Virus record (IMG/VR): IMGVR_UViG_3300027974_000178
Coordinates: 1 to 21,988 of that record
Reading direction: 5' to 3' (one strand)
From: a virus
DNA length: 21,988 bases
Below are positions 3,102 to 14,900 of this stretch, piece by piece (the first letter of the stretch is position 1; each line of letters opens with the position of its first letter). The notes below the pieces were generated by a model. The model was given only the letters and a program-made list of their open reading frames with translations. It was not told the DNA's origin and made no database searches. Made by a program: the position numbers and the translations under genes.

Positions 3102-3149
3102 TGTCAGTAGACACCTACCAGGGTGTTATTGTTTTCTAAGGAGGAAACT

Positions 3150-3698
3150 ATGATTAAATTTATCGAAAGAAACAAAGAGATCATTAGCATACTCAGTATT
3201 TCTGCTTTAGTTAGTGTTATGTCAAATTCTGCTAATGCTACTATTAATGATTTAAAGCCCGAACAGGCTCAGAACGTGACAACAACCTCGCAAGAGGTTT
3301 TTTTGGTTTCTAAGCAAAAAAGGTTGGAGAGTTTTGCAAATAAGGCATCTCTAACTGATTTAGAACTAAAACAAATGCTACACCTTGTAGGGTTCAAAGG
3401 AAAGGATCTTATTGAGGCTTGGGCAGTGGCAAAAAAGGAATCTGGAGGAAGACCCCTAGCATTTAATGGCAACCAGAAGACTGGAGACAGTTCTTATGGA
3501 ATTTTTCAAATAAATATGCTTGGTATTCTTGGTCCAGATCGTAGAAACAAGTTTGATTTATCGTCAAATGCTGAACTTCTCAATCCCGTGCTTAATGCAC
3601 AGATTGCATTTTATATGACCGATGGTGGAAAAGATTGGTCCTCTTGGCATGGGTTAACTGCTAAGACCAAAGAATTAATGAAACAATTTCCAAACTAA
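3150..3698 (+). CDS. Secreted lysozyme-like/SLT-domain endolysin
   Basis: 182 residues from the ATG at 3150, chosen because AAGGAGGA (3139-3146) sits just before it; a non-ATG start 27 nt upstream has no such site. Residues 1-30 form a signal peptide: basic start (MIKFIERNKE), hydrophobic core (IISILSISALVSVM) and a likely SANA/T cleavage. Residues 85-180 are a lysozyme/transglycosylase-like domain: KKESGG with Glu97 as the likely catalytic acid, and SYGIFQIN (115-122), the classic SLT motif. It should cut peptidoglycan after export. It is the only plus-strand gene in the left 11 kb and has its own promoter and terminator, so it can be timed apart from the virion genes. A secreted endolysin could act without holin pore release. 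The alternative is a virion-associated muralytic enzyme, less likely given the signal peptide. Confidence 0.85.
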   Translation: MIKFIERNKEIISILSISALVSVMSNSANATINDLKPEQAQNVTTTSQEVFLVSKQKRLESFANKASLTDLELKQMLHLVGFKGKDLIEAWAVAKKESGGRPLAFNGNQKTGDSSYGIFQINMLGILGPDRRNKFDLSSNAELLNPVLNAQIAFYMTDGGKDWSSWHGLTAKTKELMKQFPN

Positions 3699-3704
3699 AA
3701 ACAT

Positions 3705-4583
3705 TTAGTCTAAATTAATCCCCACTATTTTTTGATATTGCTCAAAGAGTAGTGGGGATTTTATTCCATATTCACCTATATTTTTGTCTCCCGTTAATAT
3801 TGCTTCAACCCTTTGATTTGATTTTGCTCTCAACTCTCCCCAATTAGGATTATCTTCCCAATGCAACCTTCTTTTTGAGTTTACTAAATTATAGTTTGTA
3901 AACATAAACTTAGTTACTGGAGAAACGATTCTAATACCTCGTGTGTACGCTCTTATGGCAAGTGAAAACTCTTCGCCCTCAAAATATAACTCTTTATCAT
4001 ATGGTAACTCCTTCATAATCTCAGATGTTGTAAAAATGCAGCCAGCACAAATATACAAAACCTCATCACCAAACTCTTTATCTTGCACTTCGGACCATGG
4101 CATTTTTGATCCGACTATCCTTAAATTTTTATCCCAATTAGGCTCAATTTTTTTTAATGTCTCATACGGTAGTGTTATGTATGAGTCTTCTGTTAACTCA
4201 AAAGGGTCGGGGTAATTTGTTAATATTAATCTATCACCCCAAAAAGATTTAGATTTGTTATAATTATTTATAATAGTTGTATCCCAGTTTAAAGCAAACC
4301 TAGAGTGTGAGTCTATTTGTAAAAAATATTTACCTATAGGTTTGGCTGTCGCAATTGATCTTGCCCAACATGCACCTTTGCTTTCTGACCAATGAGTTTT
4401 AATATATCTTATCTGTTTATTTGGTATAAATGATAGGTCTGCATGTTCAGCATCTTCTGCTTGAGAAAATACTGAAAAAAACAATGAATCTTTATTGTCT
4501 GCATTTTCATAACAATTTTTTACGGTATTTACAAGATCTGGATCTCTATAACTTGCTATACTAATAAAGATTAGTTTATCCAT
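3705..4583 (-). CDS. GT60-like (Skp1 GlcNAc-transferase type) glycosyltransferase
   Basis: 292 residues. The N-terminus (FISIASYRDPDLVNTVKNCY, 6-25) and the acidic motif QIDSHSRF with a following WD (89-101) match my knowledge of the 'Glycosyltransferase (GlcNAc)' family (PF11397, CAZy GT60). Its founding member adds GlcNAc to hydroxyproline on Dictyostelium Skp1. DSH (91-93) is in the place of the usual metal-binding DxD. A later stretch CAGCIFTTSEIMKELPYDKE and YFEGEEFSLAIRAY fit the acceptor side of such a GT-A fold. The start overlaps the hydroxylase gene by 13 nt, so the two are likely made together. Cytoplasmic; no membrane segment or signal. I infer transfer of a sugar, perhaps GlcNAc, to hydroxyproline on a phage structural protein. 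Other acceptors, such as Ser/Thr or cell-wall sugars, are possible. Confidence 0.8.
   Translation of the reverse strand: MDKLIFISIASYRDPDLVNTVKNCYENADNKDSLFFSVFSQAEDAEHADLSFIPNKQIRYIKTHWSESKGACWARSIATAKPIGKYFLQIDSHSRFALNWDTTIINNYNKSKSFWGDRLILTNYPDPFELTEDSYITLPYETLKKIEPNWDKNLRIVGSKMPWSEVQDKEFGDEVLYICAGCIFTTSEIMKELPYDKELYFEGEEFSLAIRAYTRGIRIVSPVTKFMFTNYNLVNSKRRLHWEDNPNWGELRAKSNQRVEAILTGDKNIGEYGIKSPLLFEQYQKIVGINLD
3717..3763 (+). terminator. Hairpin terminator after lysozyme gene
   Basis: Perfect 11-bp inverted repeat: AATCCCCACTA (3717-3727) and TAGTGGGGATT (3750-3760) with a 22-nt loop, followed by a short T-rich tail. It lies within the 3' end of the convergent glycosyltransferase gene and may also stop minus-strand transcription weakly. 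Confidence 0.6.
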
Positions 4584-5155
4584 GATACAACTGCATACCT
4601 TGTACCACTTGTGACTTCTAGAACAGAATGATTATATACATATGTTGATGGAAACATGATTAGTTGATTTGCTTTTGGTTTAAACTTAATATCAAACCTT
4701 GGAAAAACTATTTCTCCGCCTTCGTAATCATCATTAAAATAATATACATTCGAAACAGTTCTTGGGTATTCTGGATGGTGGTCAACATGATTTGTAAAAA
4801 ACTGGCCTTTACCATATCTTAAAATATCATATGAGGAGTGATCTGAAAAACTAAGACCATAGGTTCCCTTATATTCTCTTTCAAACTTATCAAAGGAATT
4901 AAAGAATGTTTCTGAAAGTGTTTTTTCAAAAAAGTCTCTTGGTGTTGGGTATACGCCATCAAATTCTGATAAATATGGAACATATATTGAATCTGTGTCT
5001 CTAATTTTTTTATTTTCTCCACTATCAATTGCTGCAGCATTCCAGGGGATAAGTCCACTTTGTACTACATCCTCTATGTCTTTTGGAAATGATTCATAAT
5101 CATCTAGTACATCTGAATATACTACAATTCCTGGTGCAATTTCTTCTTTTATCAT
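4571..5155 (-). CDS. Prolyl-4-hydroxylase-type 2OG-Fe(II) dioxygenase
   Basis: 194 residues from the ATG at 5155, which follows the zinc-ribbon stop as TAAAATG. A TTG start at 5191 would add 12 residues. The full catalytic set is visible: H123-V-D125 in FFTNHVDHHPEY, distal H176 in YVYNHSV, and R186 ten residues later in SGTRYAVVSW, the usual 2-oxoglutarate anchor. YYFNDDYEGGEIVFPRF and KPKANQLIMFPS are typical strands of the double-stranded beta-helix of P4H-like enzymes. The reaction is expected to be hydroxylation using 2-oxoglutarate, O2 and Fe(II); the prolyl substrate is inferred from the family and the GT60-like partner. It is the middle gene of a unit with a zinc ribbon before it and the glycosyltransferase after it, next to the Pro/Thr stalk gene. 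Confidence 0.85.
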   Translation of the reverse strand: MIKEEIAPGIVVYSDVLDDYESFPKDIEDVVQSGLIPWNAAAIDSGENKKIRDTDSIYVPYLSEFDGVYPTPRDFFEKTLSETFFNSFDKFEREYKGTYGLSFSDHSSYDILRYGKGQFFTNHVDHHPEYPRTVSNVYYFNDDYEGGEIVFPRFDIKFKPKANQLIMFPSTYVYNHSVLEVTSGTRYAVVSWIN

Positions 5156-5156
5156 T

Positions 5157-5420
5157 TTACCATTTACCAATTGGGCATGATGCTTTTGCAAGTGTTGTTT
5201 TTGCTTTCATAAAGCATCCACATTTTTTGCATTGAGTTGTTAATTTAATCATTTCTGGACAAGCCTTACAAATTTGGTATCTTATATCAGACTCTTCTTT
5301 TGGCAAAAAGTCAGAATTTGGATTTAACATGTCCCAAGGCTTAACAGTATCTGGATCTTTCATGTACCCAGCCATTTCAGCAATTTTATGAAATGCAGAT
5401 TTTGTATTATTTTCTTCCAT
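5157..5420 (-). CDS. Small zinc-ribbon protein, paralogue 1 of 2
   Basis: 87 residues. Six cysteines follow the pattern C51-x2-C54-x9-C64-x2-C67-x-C69-x12-C82 in the C-terminal half (CKACPEM, CKKCGCFM, SCPIGKW). The same spacing and the same CPIGKW end are found in the protein at 14052-14249. The function of this phage family is not known to me; metal binding is a safe inference. It is the first gene of the hydroxylase/glycosyltransferase unit and its paralogue also precedes an oxygenase-like gene, so it may help that enzyme, for example in iron supply, folding or substrate docking. It starts from a -10 box with 6 nt before the ATG. Confidence 0.8.
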   Translation of the reverse strand: MEENNTKSAFHKIAEMAGYMKDPDTVKPWDMLNPNSDFLPKEESDIRYQICKACPEMIKLTTQCKKCGCFMKAKTTLAKASCPIGKW

Positions 5421-5426
5421 TTAAAA

Positions 5427-5435
5427 ATTATACCA
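5427..5435 (-). promoter_or_regulatory. Extended -10 box TGGTATAAT, leaderless start of modification unit
   Basis: TGGTATAAT, 6 nt, ATG on the minus strand. It lies in the 22-bp gap after the stalk gene's stop, so the zinc ribbon, hydroxylase and glycosyltransferase can be transcribed separately from the stalk protein. Confidence 0.75.
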
Positions 5436-5442
5436 TAGAGAA

Positions 5443-7689
5443 CTATACTGTGTCTGGACGGTCAAATACTAACATTTTTGTTGTAAAGAAGTTGTCATAT
5501 GGTTCGCAGTTAATAGAAACCTTGTCTAGTGTCATATATACTGTTTCTATTAGTTCAATATTTTTAAAGTCTCCAAGTTCTGGTGAGAATATTTGATATG
5601 TAGCATCAATATCTACAGCCTTTATAAATCTTGTAACTCCATCTTTTTTAACTAAGACATAGTGAGACTTAGAGAACAAATCTCCTTCAATATAAATAAA
5701 CTCATCTTCTTGTGCAATATTAATAGCAACAATTTCAGTCTCTACAATATTTTCCATATCTAAAGATATATCAGATGATTGCCATGTTGTCCAGTCTGTT
5801 ACATTATCATCAATCTTAAGAGCAAGTAGTTTATCTCCCACCTTTAGTTCTCCTGCTGATTTTTTAGATCCTGGGGCTCCTGCGGTAAGTATGTCAGTCA
5901 AAATACTTATTGAGTTGAAGAAACCAAATGCTCCAAACGTTTCTCCGCCAGAAGGTACAAACGAGAAGGCTCCAAATGCAGTAAATCCTGATGGAGTAAA
6001 GGAAAACGCCGAAGGCGTAAATGAGAATGCACCAAATGCACCGAAGGCGCTAAATGTTGCTGGTGCTGGATTGCATACGCACCGTCCAGCGCAATTAATT
6101 GTTCCAGCACATCCATCTGCTCCAGTACAATCCATATCGGCATTAGCACTACATGGTGCTGCAGTTGGTGCTACAGTAGCCGTTGGTGCAGGAGTTGTTG
6201 TTACGGTTGGTGCGGGAGTCGTTGTTACAGTTGGTGCGGGAGTTGTTGTTGGTGCTGCTGGACAGTCCCAATAATAAGCCAATGTACAAGGATTCTGGTA
6301 AATTGCAACTGGTGTTGAAGAACCATTACACTGTCTATTTTCAATCCCTTGATAAACTAAATTACAATTTGTAGGTGCAGGTGTTGTGGTAACCGTTGGT
6401 GTTGGTGAAGGAGTTGGTGAAGGAGTTGGTGAAGGAGTTGGTGAAGGAGTTGGTGTTGGAGTTGGTGTACATGTTGGAACTGTAGGATATCCAGGGTATC
6501 CAGATGTAGAACAAGATGTTGCATAGTCATTACATAAAGAACCACTTACATCATAACTTGCAGTACCTTGCTCAGTTGATCCATTTTGATACTTTGTTGA
6601 GCAATACCAAGTTGTCCCTGGTGTAGGTGTTGGTGTAACTGTAGGGGTTGGTGTTGCTGAAGGCGTTGGCGTTGGCGTTGTTGTTGGAGTTGGTGTACAA
6701 TTTATGGTTGGATAACCACTTGTGCTTGTTGTTGCATCTGTTAAAATACCAGTCATACAAAAACTTTCAAGGCTATCTAATGCTTGAATTAAGCCAACAT
6801 TACTAGAGCCATGCACTAATACACCATCACAACATCCCGATGCATACCAAGTTGATGGTGCAGGTGTTGGTGTTGGTGTTTGAGTTGGAGCAGGTGTACA
6901 ACTTGGTGTTCCGCTAGTTGGTGTTGATCCACAAACCCATCCAATTGGTGGATAACCATTTGCATTTTCTTGTGCAGCATATGCATCAGCACATGATGAA
7001 GATGTCTGAAATGGTCCATATCCAGTATTTGTTAAATCACAATAACCAAAGTAATTTGTTCCAGCAGTTGTAGTTGGTGTTGGAGTTGTTGTAGGTGTTG
7101 GAGTACAATTAACAGAAGGATAAGAAGTTCCATAAACAACAGTTCTTTGTGTTGGTCCTACTAAACTTTGTGTACAGAAACTATCTAATGCATCAAGTGC
7201 ATTTGCTTCTGATGAAAGACTGCTTCCATGAATTAGTACACCATCACAACATCCTGATGCATACCACCCAGTTATTCCAGTGCTTGTTGGTGTTGGTGTA
7301 ACTGTTGGTGTTGGTGTTGGAGTTGGAGTTGGTGTAACTGTTGGTGTTGGTGTTGGTGTTGGTGTTGGTGTTGTAGTAGATGTAGGAGCAGGAGTAGTTG
7401 TTGGTCCTGGTGTAGAAGTTGGTGCTGGTGTAGAAGTTGGTGCTGGAACATAAGCATAATAAATAAAACTTACATCTGACTCATACTGAACAAGATCTCC
7501 AGCATTAGGAAGTTGAGATGCAATTTTATCACTTAAAGATGCGTTAGATGTATTAGAAGATCCACCATTAATAGGATTTAGTCCTGAACTATAAATTGTA
7601 GCAATTGCTTGGGCTGTTGTTAGGTTAGAAAGATTTGGTACTGTTACCATTCCTTTTGATGATGACCATAGACCAAATGAGTTTAACAT
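5443..7689 (-). CDS. Modular fibre/adhesin: PASTA-like, Pro/Thr stalks, Cys modules, Hint-like C-terminus
   Basis: 748 residues. Order: a PASTA-like domain (14-80; TVPNLSNLTTAQAIATIYSS); Pro/Thr stalks at about 82-138, 196-209, 264-279, 332-359, 407-440 and 480-511; cysteine-rich modules between them. Two modules are near-copies starting WYASGCCDGVL (142 and 281). Residues 546-592 are an aromatic low-complexity run (AFGAFSFTPS). Residues 594-748 resemble a Hint (hedgehog/intein) domain: GELKVGDKLLAL (613-624), SHYVLVKKDG (675-684) and a closing strand NCEPYDNFFTTKMLVFD. The possible nucleophile is Ser595 rather than Cys, and the terminal HN of inteins is absent, so self-cleavage rather than splicing would be expected, if active at all. 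PASTA domains bind peptidoglycan or muropeptides. Probably an extended host-contact fibre. It lies just upstream of the hydroxylase and glycosyltransferase genes, and its Pro/Thr stalks are the best candidate substrate. Confidence 0.75.
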   Translation of the reverse strand: MLNSFGLWSSSKGMVTVPNLSNLTTAQAIATIYSSGLNPINGGSSNTSNASLSDKIASQLPNAGDLVQYESDVSFIYYAYVPAPTSTPAPTSTPGPTTTPAPTSTTTPTPTPTPTPTVTPTPTPTPTPTVTPTPTSTGITGWYASGCCDGVLIHGSSLSSEANALDALDSFCTQSLVGPTQRTVVYGTSYPSVNCTPTPTTTPTPTTTAGTNYFGYCDLTNTGYGPFQTSSSCADAYAAQENANGYPPIGWVCGSTPTSGTPSCTPAPTQTPTPTPAPSTWYASGCCDGVLVHGSSNVGLIQALDSLESFCMTGILTDATTSTSGYPTINCTPTPTTTPTPTPSATPTPTVTPTPTPGTTWYCSTKYQNGSTEQGTASYDVSGSLCNDYATSCSTSGYPGYPTVPTCTPTPTPTPSPTPSPTPSPTPSPTPTVTTTPAPTNCNLVYQGIENRQCNGSSTPVAIYQNPCTLAYYWDCPAAPTTTPAPTVTTTPAPTVTTTPAPTATVAPTAAPCSANADMDCTGADGCAGTINCAGRCVCNPAPATFSAFGAFGAFSFTPSAFSFTPSGFTAFGAFSFVPSGGETFGAFGFFNSISILTDILTAGAPGSKKSAGELKVGDKLLALKIDDNVTDWTTWQSSDISLDMENIVETEIVAINIAQEDEFIYIEGDLFSKSHYVLVKKDGVTRFIKAVDIDATYQIFSPELGDFKNIELIETVYMTLDKVSINCEPYDNFFTTKMLVFDRPDTV
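6401..6460. repeat. 12-bp tandem repeat in stalk coding region
   Basis: Four exact head-to-tail copies of GTTGGTGAAGGA (plus-strand reading) and one variant copy. On the coding strand they give Ser-Pro-Thr-Pro repeats. Copy number could change by slippage and alter stalk length in frame. Confidence 0.9.
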
Positions 7690-7695
7690 TTTGAA

Positions 7696-8328
7696 CTACG
7701 CCTTCAAATCGCCAATAAGAATCCAAGTATTTGTATCGTCTTTAAGAAGTACCGCACCAGAATATTGACTTGCTATTCTTTTGTTTCCATTCTTACTATT
7801 TATTGTTACGCCAACTGTTGCTCCAGCAATTGTAACTTCTCCAGAGCCGTTTCTAATAATTTCAATTTTTTGTCCAACTACAAAAGGAACAGAACTATTT
7901 AGTGGAACTGTAATTATCTTGTCTGTTGCTGCAGTTACTCTAATTGTTTTACCTGCATCTAAAAGTGCAACTGTGTAGTTGTCTGTTTTAGAAAGAATGT
8001 GTGCGGAATCATTATATTCTCTCCATGCACCATTATAATAATATTGAATTTCATTTACAACATTTCCAGTTGAATCTTGTCTAACAAAAGCAACTACTCC
8101 ATTTGCTGGAGATGTAATTGCAGCATCTCTTGCTGCTGGATTAAGAAAATTATTAATTCCTGCTTTTGCATTTACAACACTATCAAAAGAAACAGTAGAG
8201 GCAAATGTGTGTGCCCCATTCCAATCAAAGTTAGCAGCAGTATTTGTTGAACCTGCTACTGGATACCAAGTATCGCTTCCTTGATCATATATATAAGCAA
8301 TTTTTCCAATTGAACTAGTTGTTGTCAT
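7696..8328 (-). CDS. Tail fibre-like structural protein
   Basis: 210 residues starting MTTTSSIGKIAYIYDQGSDT and continuing with WYPVAG. The middle (FVRQDSTGNVVNEIQYYYNG, then AWREY) and the C-terminal beta-rich part (VGQKIEIIRNGSGEVTIAGA and GAVLLKDDTNTWILIGDLKA) resemble the shaft and tip modules of short tail fibres. The ending is very common in phage structural proteins ('xxWxLxGDLxA'). It overlaps the preceding 38-codon gene by 14 nt and is followed 6 nt later by the stalk gene, so all belong to the unit starting at 8868. Structural role inferred. Confidence 0.75.
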   Translation of the reverse strand: MTTTSSIGKIAYIYDQGSDTWYPVAGSTNTAANFDWNGAHTFASTVSFDSVVNAKAGINNFLNPAARDAAITSPANGVVAFVRQDSTGNVVNEIQYYYNGAWREYNDSAHILSKTDNYTVALLDAGKTIRVTAATDKIITVPLNSSVPFVVGQKIEIIRNGSGEVTIAGATVGVTINSKNGNKRIASQYSGAVLLKDDTNTWILIGDLKA

Positions 8329-11343: not shown

Positions 11344-12243
11344 ATGAATCAATTTTACGACAAATACTTTTCTGGAAACTTAATAGGTGCAACTCGTGGT
11401 GGATTCAATAAACGTGGGGAAGCAATAGAAAGCAATACAACGTATGATGGTGTATGTCCAGATTGTGATCATTATGGTGATTGTGCTATTGTAAGAAAAG
11501 GTAATATTTATCCAGATCCCTTAATAACTTACAAGATAAATAACTACGGATATAGGTCTGATGATATCACAAAAGAAGATGCACTAAATAATTTTATATT
11601 TTCTGGATGCTCAAATACTTTTGGAATAGGCGTTCCAATTGAATCTATTTGGGCCCATCAAATTAATGAAGAACTTGGTGGAGAAAAATTTATAAATCTT
11701 GGAATGAATAGCGGGTCTCATAAAACAATAGTTTTTGATATATTTAGATACATTAAAAATTTTGGAAAACCTAAAGGTGTCTTTGTTCTTTTTCCAAACA
11801 TGGAGCGACATATAGGATTTAGCAAAGATAAAGATAAGAATATTTTTATACTAGTTTATAGAAATCCTAGAGGCAGAGAAGATATGCAAAAATGCCTAGA
11901 TGCAATACCAGAAGATGTTGCATGGTTTGAGTTCTATCATACTGTTATGATGCTTGAAGATTATTTGGAACAACTTGATATTCCTTTGGTTTGGGCTACT
12001 TGGGATGAAAAACTTAATAAAAAAATACTAGGAACAAAAGGTTTTAGAAATTATGTAAATACTGAAAACTTTGATATATTTGATAGAACAAAGGCTCTTG
12101 GAAAACCAGATAAATTTAAAAATAGGTATTGGGAAATAGCAAGAGACCTTTCTCATATGGGAACAAAATCACATATGTTTTACTATCAATTATTAATTGA
12201 TGAATGGAGGAATAAATATGAGAAGAATAATCAATCGAGTTAG
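11344..12243 (+). CDS. SGNH/GDSL-like hydrolase
   Basis: 299 residues. Landmarks of the SGNH family occur in order: FIFSGCSNTFGIGV with the likely nucleophile Ser90, INLGMNSGS (117-125) as the N-x-G block, and DLSH (268-271) giving the Asp and His of the triad. The N-terminal 60 residues carry three cysteines (C38-x2-C41-x5-C47) in CPDCDHYGDC, possibly a metal site. Family members remove acetyl or other acyl groups from sugars or lipids. No signal peptide or membrane segment is seen. It stands alone on the plus strand between virion genes and the holin-like gene. It may de-acylate a host surface glycan or edit a phage glycan; both are inference. Confidence 0.75.
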   Translation: MNQFYDKYFSGNLIGATRGGFNKRGEAIESNTTYDGVCPDCDHYGDCAIVRKGNIYPDPLITYKINNYGYRSDDITKEDALNNFIFSGCSNTFGIGVPIESIWAHQINEELGGEKFINLGMNSGSHKTIVFDIFRYIKNFGKPKGVFVLFPNMERHIGFSKDKDKNIFILVYRNPRGREDMQKCLDAIPEDVAWFEFYHTVMMLEDYLEQLDIPLVWATWDEKLNKKILGTKGFRNYVNTENFDIFDRTKALGKPDKFKNRYWEIARDLSHMGTKSHMFYYQLLIDEWRNKYEKNNQSS

Positions 12244-13355: not shown

Positions 13356-14050
13356 AGTTTTATTGTAAGGATTCTAGAGAGGCTTTTCTGCAATCAGAGA
13401 GTGTGGATTTGTTTTTCACTCACCCGCCGTATTTTGTAACAAACAAATATCATTATGGTGGAGACCTAGCCTTGCAATTACAAAATAAAAAAGATTATTT
13501 TGCATATTTAGATGCCTATATCCAATGTATTAAAAATATGGAAACTGCTCTAAAGGACACTGGCTCAGCGATTATCATATTAAAAAATTATGAACACTCA
13601 TTTGATATCATAGCCAAAATCAAAAGTGAAACAAATCTAATAATCACAAAAAGTCTTATTTGGGACTATTCCGATAGTGTATTTTTACAGCATAACCAAG
13701 AAAGAACTGGAGATGAGTTTGCTATTATGCTTCTTCTTCATAAAAGACATAGTGTGCCTAGATATGAGCATTTAGAGAACTTTGTTATTAGGACTCCTTG
13801 GGATACCGCCCTAGAATCAGTTAAAGAGTTTGATGAAATAGGCTTTGTTTATGATTGCTTCCCCGAAAAATTAACAGAAATGATTCTAGATAACTATTCT
13901 GTACCTGGAGATACTGTTGCTGACATATTTGGAGGAACTGGCACTACTGCAGCAGTTTCACTGCGTATGGGCCGAAAGGCTATTTATAACGATGTCTCTA
14001 TTGAACAGTTTAATATTGCCAAAAAGCGTCTTTCTGCTATAATTGACTAA
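13346..14050 (+). CDS. DNA methyltransferase, N6-adenine/N4-cytosine type
   Basis: 234 residues from a GTG start; AGGAG lies 5 nt before it and it overlaps the previous gene by 10 nt. Motif IV appears early (DLFFTHPPYF, with HPPY at 26-29) and the SAM-binding motif I late (ADIFGGTGTTAA, about 192-203), followed by MGRKAIYNDVS. This order is that of the beta class (PF01555). The family usually has DPPY or SPPY; His in the first position is unusual. No restriction gene is adjacent, so it is probably a solitary phage methylase for self-protection or regulation. Target site cannot be read from sequence. Confidence 0.85.
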   Translation: MEVEFYCKDSREAFLQSESVDLFFTHPPYFVTNKYHYGGDLALQLQNKKDYFAYLDAYIQCIKNMETALKDTGSAIIILKNYEHSFDIIAKIKSETNLIITKSLIWDYSDSVFLQHNQERTGDEFAIMLLLHKRHSVPRYEHLENFVIRTPWDTALESVKEFDEIGFVYDCFPEKLTEMILDNYSVPGDTVADIFGGTGTTAAVSLRMGRKAIYNDVSIEQFNIAKKRLSAIID

Positions 14051-14051
14051 T

Positions 14052-14249
14052 ATGGACGACGTAAAGTTTACAGATTTGTTTGACCCTAGTCAGCCTAGAT
14101 CAGACAGAGGTTTAATTGAGCATCGTCTTAGTATTTGTAATGAATGCCCTGCATTTAGAAAAAATACAAAGAAGTGTACTAAGTGTGGATGTTTCATGAA
14201 TTTGAAATCTACATTAAAGCAGGCAAAGTGCCCTATAGGAAAGTGGTGA
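14052..14249 (+). CDS. Small zinc-ribbon protein, paralogue 2 of 2
   Basis: 65 residues from the ATG at 14052, one base after the methylase stop. Cysteines C29-x2-C32-x9-C42-x2-C45-x-C47-x12-C60 (CNECPAF, CTKCGCFM, KCPIGKW) repeat exactly the spacing of the 5157-5420 protein. It is shorter at the N-terminus. The next gene, 3 nt downstream, is oxygenase-like, so the zinc ribbon/oxygenase pairing occurs twice in this window. Confidence 0.8.
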   Translation: MDDVKFTDLFDPSQPRSDRGLIEHRLSICNECPAFRKNTKKCTKCGCFMNLKSTLKQAKCPIGKW

Positions 14250-14252
14250 GAG

Positions 14253-14900
14253 ATGGAAAAAGAACATAAGTTTTTTGAAAGAGTTGTTAGGTCTGATATA
14301 CCTTCACTTGAAAAATTTGTTTTAGAATTAAACGATGACCTACATGATGGACTATTTCCAGACATCACAAAAGAAGAAGTTATTGCAAAGAAAGAAATCG
14401 TTGGCGATGCTATTGGAACATCTTTTGCTCACAAGTATAATATTTTTCAATTTTTAAATTCAGATATCAGAAAGTTACACCAAGCGATTAGAGACATGAC
14501 CATTGAGGCATGTGATTACTATGGTGTGGACTTTAATAAGCAAGAATATATGCTTCAAGGTTGGTTTAATTGCGATAATAAGTCATCAGATAATTTAAAT
14601 GATTTACATGATCACTGTGGTGGAGTTGGATTACCATTTTTCCATGGTTACTATTGTGTAAATGCAGAACCATCAGTGACTCATTACCAGTTAGATCCAA
14701 AAAACAATCCAGAGGAAATTTTTGAGAATGTCAATGTTAATGACAGAGCAATCCTTTCTGTTGTTGGGAAACCACATAGAAAAGGCAAGTGGGAACAAGA
14801 TAGCAAGCGAATTACTATTGCTTATGATATGATCCCACTATCTGCTCTTGGCGATAATAATGACAAAAACTATTTGCAACACTGGGTACCACTAATCTAA
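14253..14900 (+). CDS. Putative 2OG-Fe(II) oxygenase-like protein
   Basis: 215 residues. The metal-site candidates are H119/D120/H121 in NDLHDHCGG, followed by a strand FFHGYYCVNAEPSVTHY, and then H175 and R186 in VGKPHRKGKWEQDSKRITIA. This order, an HxH/HxD pair, a 'GyyCvn' strand, then PHR and an Arg leading a final strand, fits putative 2OG-Fe(II) oxygenases of phages (PF13759-like). It is not close to the P4H-like protein at 4571-5155. The substrate is unknown. Neighbours (methylase, zinc ribbon) leave nucleic acid or protein targets open. Confidence 0.6.
   Translation: MEKEHKFFERVVRSDIPSLEKFVLELNDDLHDGLFPDITKEEVIAKKEIVGDAIGTSFAHKYNIFQFLNSDIRKLHQAIRDMTIEACDYYGVDFNKQEYMLQGWFNCDNKSSDNLNDLHDHCGGVGLPFFHGYYCVNAEPSVTHYQLDPKNNPEEIFENVNVNDRAILSVVGKPHRKGKWEQDSKRITIAYDMIPLSALGDNNDKNYLQHWVPLI

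Follow-up and report, generated by a model that had tools for sequence, protein, structure and literature searches.

A candidate fibre-modification module in an uncultured phage: a P4H-like oxygenase and a PF11397 glycosyltransferase encoded behind a zinc ribbon and a Thr-Pro stalk

The Skp1 pathway of Dictyostelium and Toxoplasma joins the prolyl 4-hydroxylase (P4H) PhyA to Gnt1, a glycosyltransferase (GT) of family GT60. A comparable gene pair is described here from IMG/VR record IMGVR_UViG_3300027974_000178, an uncultured virus, of which positions 1 to 21,988 (21,988 b, 37% GC; hereafter the window) were analysed. It encodes a soluble P4H-like oxygenase of the same fold and a GT that belongs, like Gnt1, to PF11397; a zinc ribbon and a proline-rich stalk precede them on the minus strand. 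These four genes probably form a module that modifies the phage's own fibre, the oxygenase acting on stalk prolines and the GT adding a sugar. Skp1, a globular subunit of a ubiquitin ligase in the cytosol, is modified on one Pro in oxygen sensing; the likely substrate here is a repetitive phage stalk, and the phage cassette also includes a zinc ribbon and, in many cases, another oxygenase-type gene.

Parts of this arrangement are found in other described systems. The polypeptide alpha-N-acetylglucosamine (GlcNAc)-transferase of Trypanosoma cruzi is also a GT60 enzyme, and Thr-rich, Pro-containing stalks recur in those phage versions that have the GT only; in T. cruzi, O-glycosylation of the mucins takes place without a hydroxylase and in the secretory pathway, whereas the phage enzymes would work in the bacterial cytoplasm. 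The hydroxyproline (Hyp)-rich glycoproteins of plants and algae (arabinogalactan proteins and extensins; Cr-P4H-1, PDB 3gze) have [A/S/T]-P repeats and the P4H fold in common with the phage locus, but involve arabinosyl- and galactosyltransferases and, in plants, a secretory location. Virus-encoded P4Hs of matching fold are known from PBCV-1 (vCPH, PDB 5c5t) and the nucleocytoplasmic large DNA viruses; these are eukaryotic viruses, for which no link to a phage stalk and a PF11397 GT was shown.

For phages, GTs have been proposed to modify capsid protein, for example in mycobacteriophage Maravista (PMC11256854); virion proteins are the proposed targets in both cases, but the Maravista type lacks a hydroxylase and covarying stalk repeats. 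2-Oxoglutarate (2OG)-Fe(II) oxygenases of the same superfamily are present in cyanophages (phrog_61, phrog_3531), and in cyanophage S-IOM18 fibre-region genes are followed by a zinc ribbon and a 2OG-like gene, identified by eye. The cyanophage genes differ in that they often lie near metabolic genes, and current proposals place them in nitrogen/2OG or iron metabolism: nitrogen metabolism via 2OG (PMC3037559), or DNA repair, nitrogen regulation or PiuC-like iron uptake (PMC13184970). EGLN3-like folds have been noted in many phages, without a substrate (PMC12774648), and bacteria and viruses were described in 2012, in work on collagen-like fibres of phages, as being without prolyl hydroxylases for collagen-type hydroxylation (PMC3368898). 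No description of phage hydroxyproline, of a phage precedent for the cassette or of DUF6171, the family nearest to the zinc ribbon, was found in the open-access literature searched. The chemistry would parallel the Skp1 modification or that of the plant Hyp-rich glycoproteins; the phage substrate, the modular pairing of stalk and enzymes and the zinc ribbon are undescribed for phages in that literature.

All elements named in a first-pass annotation of the window were found where it had placed them, on the minus strand, with the stalk upstream and the zinc ribbon leading the enzyme genes. The four genes are tightly packed within a minus-strand run of tail-type genes, in the order stalk, DUF6171-like zinc ribbon, P4H-like oxygenase and PF11397 GT.

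5443–7689, minus strand: stalk/fibre protein, 748 aa, the proposed substrate
5157–5420, minus strand: DUF6171-type zinc ribbon, 87 aa, the proposed adaptor and constant link of the module
4571–5155, minus strand: P4H-like 2OG-Fe(II) oxygenase, 194 aa from the likely ATG (PF13640, invariant HxD...H and R/K, structure model)
3705–4583, minus strand: PF11397 (GT60-type) GT, 292 aa, DSH at residues 91–93 (PF11397 profile, structure model)
7696–8328, minus strand: tail/fibre protein upstream of the stalk (PHROG matches to minor tail and virion structural proteins)
3123–3698, plus strand: lysozyme gene, convergent, following the GT

A TTG start at 5191 would extend the oxygenase to 206 aa; the ATG at 5155, one base past the zinc-ribbon stop, is the likelier start, as most homologues begin with MIKEEIAPG. 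The GT gene overlaps the 3' end of the oxygenase gene by 13 nt. In several relatives the region homologous to 7696–8328 is fused to a stalk with XP repeats, the TAIL2 and STALK matches falling on a single open reading frame (ORF) (L006, L007 and L021; L numbers denote the loci compared).

The stalk protein consists of Thr-Pro, Ala-Pro and Ser-Pro linkers separating Cys-containing modules. Its 748 residues include 89 Pro and 135 Thr, and 69 of the 89 Pro are preceded by T, A or S. The repeats draw on several synonymous codons for Thr and for Pro and are therefore not one copied DNA unit. The C-terminal domain appears Hint-like, without the catalytic Cys1; this assignment was made by eye only and a PDB sequence search gave no match. 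Near the N-terminus (residues 15–75) a PASTA domain was detected (PF03793, E = 8.7e-6), a domain whose usual ligand is peptidoglycan.

The P4H-like protein matched PF13640 with an E value of 5.8e-18. By PDB sequence profile its nearest solved sequence was the P4H of Bacillus anthracis, with 1.1e-11 for the P4H 3itq against 2.6e-7 for PKHD. A complete P4H-like active site had been claimed in the first-pass annotation and its residues proved correct, H123, D125, H176 and R186 becoming H135, D137, H188 and R198 (a shift of 12) when counted from the TTG start. The catalytic positions, H/D/H with R/K, were kept in 29 of 29 aligned relatives and, among the ungapped copies from zinc-ribbon cassettes before dereplication, in 152/152 (H), 152/152 (D), 150/150 (H) and 150/150 (R or K). 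The structure model (pLDDT 89) was most similar to PHD2 (Z 18.4, root-mean-square deviation 2.9 over 183 residues), followed among the P4Hs by those of Dictyostelium (6t8m, Z 17.5), the alga, in complex with (Ser-Pro)5 (3gze, Z 17.5), and PBCV-1 (5c5t, Z 16.8). Model and alignment together give a double-stranded beta-helix with the HxD...H iron triad and a basic 2OG-binding residue. A bacterial host as the source of the gene was considered and rejected: the genome contigs contained only distant relatives (partial-length matches of at most 47%), and neither the zinc ribbon nor the GT was detected close to them with the hidden Markov models (HMMs) used. As a separate observation, phrog_3531 and phrog_2954, labelled 'ferrochelatase', match the P4H and a second oxygenase-like family (OXB, below) in the oxygenase core; mis-annotation or a fusion artefact seems to lie behind this label.

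Residues 52–264 of the GT matched PF11397 with an E value of 3.6e-42 (145.5 bits, cutoff 21). A placement outside this family, named in the first-pass annotation as grounds for abandoning its proposal, is thereby ruled out. D91 and H93 were invariant in 19 diverse relatives. The model (pLDDT 91.5) has a GT-A fold with a DxH/DxD metal motif; the 50 PDB matches listed were all polypeptide N-acetylgalactosamine (GalNAc)-transferases of this fold, with TMq of about 0.6–0.67, and none of the PDB chains matched the GT sequence profile. GT60 holds both the Hyp-specific Skp1 enzyme Gnt1, whose activity needs the hydroxylase, and the T. cruzi polypeptide alpha-GlcNAc-transferase (PMC6939170), so that membership in this family does not distinguish a Hyp from a Thr acceptor.

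The zinc ribbon scored 25.0 bits against PF19668 (DUF6171; E = 2.5e-5), just under the cutoff of 27, and matched phrog_13558 with an E value of 9e-14. Its pattern is C-x2-C ... C-x2-C-x-C ... C-P-x-G-K-W and the Cys columns are invariant in the alignment; on account of this conservation it is regarded as related to DUF6171, and on account of the score it was not filed as a member. It is the common link among the versions of the cassette, and in L141 and L326 it is fused with the GT in one protein. Given its position between stalk and enzymes, together with these fusions, the zinc ribbon is proposed to act as an adaptor bringing the enzymes to the stalk.

The association of stalk and enzymes was assessed in a sample blind to the enzymes, by scanning for DNA encoding VAPTPVAPTP. 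This yielded 117 loci, with 81 stalks followed by at least 2.5 kb of sequence. P4H and/or OXB was encoded within 2.5 kb downstream on the same strand in 73 of the 81, and the zinc ribbon in 69 (41/46 and 38/46, respectively, after dereplication), whereas none of 767 control ORFs of at least 200 aa from random loci was followed by such an oxygenase-type gene. P4H itself was detected by HMM in 35 of the 73, the others having OXB only. A second scan, for (TP)6, gave 112 loci, which were compared with 145 random-pattern control loci: the PF11397 GT was found in 12 against 0 (Fisher p = 3e-5), P4H in 7 against 2 (p = 0.04) and the zinc ribbon in 5 against 0 (p = 0.015). Chance or artefact as the cause of the association is ruled out by the random-locus controls, and the co-occurrence with Pro-rich fibres in relatives that the first-pass annotation had predicted is borne out far above chance.

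P4H relatives collected from IMG/VR fell mostly into two sets. In the first, a repeat fibre is followed by the zinc ribbon, P4H, further enzymes and a convergent lysozyme, and the fibre repeats are (TP)n, (VAPTP)n, (TPPSP)n, (APVAP)n or (TTP)n. The second (L034–L057) is without the zinc ribbon, and no XP stalk was present among the genes checked on both sides. P4H and GT are encoded together in the window, L003, L007, L323 and L324; most cassettes have the oxygenase without this GT, often with other sugar genes in its place. The variable genes 3' of P4H comprise this GT, OXB, an NAD-epimerase, a NodU-type carbamoyltransferase, a sulfotransferase, an FkbM methyltransferase, an NTP-transferase, GT8-like and YibB proteins and radical-SAM proteins. 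OXB proteins, roughly 190 aa long and bearing an HxD...H pattern, can replace P4H; the reading of OXB as an oxygenase draws on this motif, the shared phrog_3531 and one weak PF13532 match. The P4H-GT pair as the unit of the system was thus too narrow a view, P4H often occurring without the GT, OXB substituting for it and the zinc ribbon being the common link. In the phage collection, distant P4H matches were found in 219 records, mostly cyanophages, zinc-ribbon matches in 30 and PF11397 GTs in three, and no cultured phage had the full cassette of XP stalk, zinc ribbon and P4H.

Loci gathered by the zinc ribbon alone were pooled with the other loci, giving 92 after dereplication, in which the stalk repeat varied with the enzyme set. 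Among loci with P4H or OXB, 57 stalks were of the XP type, one was FFPP and five were other, while all seven loci with at least three P4H-like genes had an FFPP stalk. The nine zinc-ribbon loci with the GT only had six Thr-rich, two FFPP and one XP stalk; of the 13 without these enzymes, 12 had other stalks and one XP. None of 5000 label shuffles reached the observed table, and the same was true of the 38 loci from the zinc-ribbon-only scan. On a tree of the zinc ribbon, built on about 75 aligned residues and with deeper pairs that are not independent, the oxygenase state changed about 14 times, and between nearest pairs differing in oxygenase the stalk differences were concordant in 18, opposite in none and tied in four. 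Within XP runs, 86% of the prolines are preceded by Thr, Ala or Ser. Pro after T, A or S is the motif of algal P4H and arabinogalactan-protein substrates.

Beside these loci, two further arrangements were observed. L548, L563, L568, L574, L580, L584 and L587 contain tandem arrays in which three to four genes match the P4H HMM, as part of runs of up to six genes of similar size, adjoining the zinc ribbon and a fibre of (FFPPFFP)n repeats. In L589, L530, L529 and L519, fibres with Thr-rich runs such as TTTTTTTTTTTAATTTTAA stand ahead of the zinc ribbon and the GT and resemble T. cruzi mucin repeats.

From the association with XP stalks we infer that the oxygenase hydroxylates peptidyl proline. 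In the infected cell it would use O2, 2-oxoglutarate and Fe(II) to convert prolines of the unfolded linkers to 4-hydroxyproline. With the zinc ribbon helping to recruit the enzymes, the GT would add a sugar to the stalk, probably GlcNAc or another N-acetylhexosamine from a UDP-sugar. Modified in this way, the stalk would be stiff and coated with sugar, with the tail on one side and the Cys-containing modules on the other, and could affect adsorption, protease resistance or particle interactions. The interpretation should moreover be widened to a fibre-modification module that has the zinc ribbon as its link and the P4H-GT pair as one of its versions. On balance we favour a modular system, present in several kinds of phages, in which stalk repeat and enzyme set co-evolve and a zinc-ribbon adaptor delivers the enzymes. 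The pairings, held with similar reserve, would be Thr/Ala-Pro stalks with P4H or OXB, FFPP stalks with at least three hydroxylase-like enzymes and Thr-rich stalks with a mucin-type GT alone.

Several observations weigh against this interpretation. The model of the P4H-like protein scored Z 17.6 with the PKHD/PiuC-type 3dkq, too near to the top prolyl hydroxylase score (a tie within 17.6–18.4) for the fold to decide the substrate, and the protein also matches the PKHD-like NCBIfam NF003974 (E = 6e-11, below cutoff). For eight of the 81 VAPTP stalks, no member of the four cassette families is encoded within 2.5 kb. Comparison of OXB with P4H by hhalign gave nothing and an OXB search of the PDB was without a match, and OXB as a distant P4H was rejected on these results. 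Relatives of the GT adjoin (TP)n stalks without any oxygenase (L005, L141, L326), hydroxylation and glycosylation thus being separable steps. The distant phage PF11397 GTs (about 35% identity) mostly have no XP stalk nearby (a stalk in 7 of 49 dereplicated loci) and do not support the link to XP stalks, and DUF6171 is also present away from fibres in cultured phages. The stalk classes were set after inspection of the data; three versions of the rules altered individual cells and not the pattern. Finally, related phages do not count as independent cases, and part of the covariation could stem from tail modules being transferred whole; even then, the enzyme would be tied to the stalk.

In the window, Hyp is the sugar acceptor towards which we lean, threonine being a credible second candidate. 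An alternative that we consider tenable without favouring it is that the two modifications are parallel, P4H hydroxylating stalk Pro and the GT glycosylating Thr of the same stalk as a mucin-type alpha-GlcNAc/GalNAc-Thr. It draws on the mostly Thr-rich stalks of the GT-only zinc-ribbon loci (6/9), like the poly-Thr of T. cruzi mucins, and on the oxygenase-free (TP)n loci of close GT relatives, two findings from which the division between Hyp and Thr was made. The likeness of the GT model to GalNAc-transferases among the PDB matches listed, and the presence in GT60 of a polypeptide alpha-GlcNAc-transferase besides Gnt1 (PMC6939170), point the same way. Against it stand the overlap of the GT and P4H genes in the window and the Skp1 pathway, the sole biochemically defined pathway of a P4H and a GT60 enzyme, which uses a Hyp acceptor and depends on the hydroxylase (PMC6939170). 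The first-pass annotation had proposed that the phage hydroxylates stalk prolines and adds a sugar; the tie of the cassette to Pro-rich fibres and the GT family held, while for the same four reasons a sugar on that Hyp is not established.

It is unlikely that the oxygenase and GT are mere cargo of a tail-fibre hot-spot, placed there by module shuffling and acting elsewhere, on host surface glycans, 2OG/nitrogen, iron uptake or DNA repair. The published proposals for phage 2OG oxygenases cited above (PMC3037559, PMC13184970) are of this kind, and epimerase, carbamoyltransferase, sulfotransferase and FkbM genes also occur in the cassettes; but the stalk repeat tracks the enzyme set, the oxygenase is near-obligate for VAPTP stalks (73/81 vs 0/767), and the same zinc ribbon without these enzymes mostly lacks such repeats (12/13). 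Very improbable, in our judgement, is that the Thr-Pro repeats are low-complexity linkers made by slippage, without chemistry, and that P4H targets another phage or host protein as the Pseudomonas P4H does EF-Tu. TP repeats are indeed frequent low-complexity linkers and the P. putida P4H-EF-Tu complex (4iw3) was among the best fold matches, yet the synonymous codon mixture within the repeats, the tracking of enzyme sets by distinct units (TP, VAPTP, TPPSP, APVAP, FFPP) and the occurrence of multi-oxygenase arrays with (FFPP)n all speak against it.

Among the 'auxiliary metabolic genes' of phages, 2OG-Fe(II) oxygenases are widespread, with substrates unassigned (PMC3037559, PMC13184970, PMC12774648), and for one large group of them the covariation of stalk and enzyme points to a definite substrate that can be put to the test. 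If the modular interpretation is true, many of those filed as metabolic would be virion-modifying enzymes, and many phages may decorate their own fibres chemically. For a bacteriophage, glycoprotein stalks built on hydroxyproline would be a novelty, and the cassettes would provide compact, soluble enzyme sets for producing hydroxyproline glycoproteins in bacteria.

Further genes of possibly related function were noted. A second DUF6171 zinc ribbon in the window (14043–14249, plus strand) passes the PF19668 cutoff with 36.7 bits (E = 5.8e-9). The 215-aa protein encoded directly after it (region 14043–14900, plus strand) had no Pfam match and, by eye, looks like a 2OG oxygenase (HDH...PH(x9)R); a homologue is located at L009:18780–19442. 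In Synechococcus phage S-SRM01 (L679), an annotated flavin-dependent halogenase (3327–4784) lies between fibre-type genes and an annotated adhesin tip complex gene with a DUF6171-type zinc ribbon behind it, and this halogenase is possibly another fibre-modifying enzyme. The window also encodes, at 11344–12243 on the plus strand, a protein that by eye is SGNH hydrolase-like (GCSNTFGIG). Its homologue at L021:11195–11983 is found inside the cassette, right after the oxygenases, and acyl decoration may be another version of the modification.

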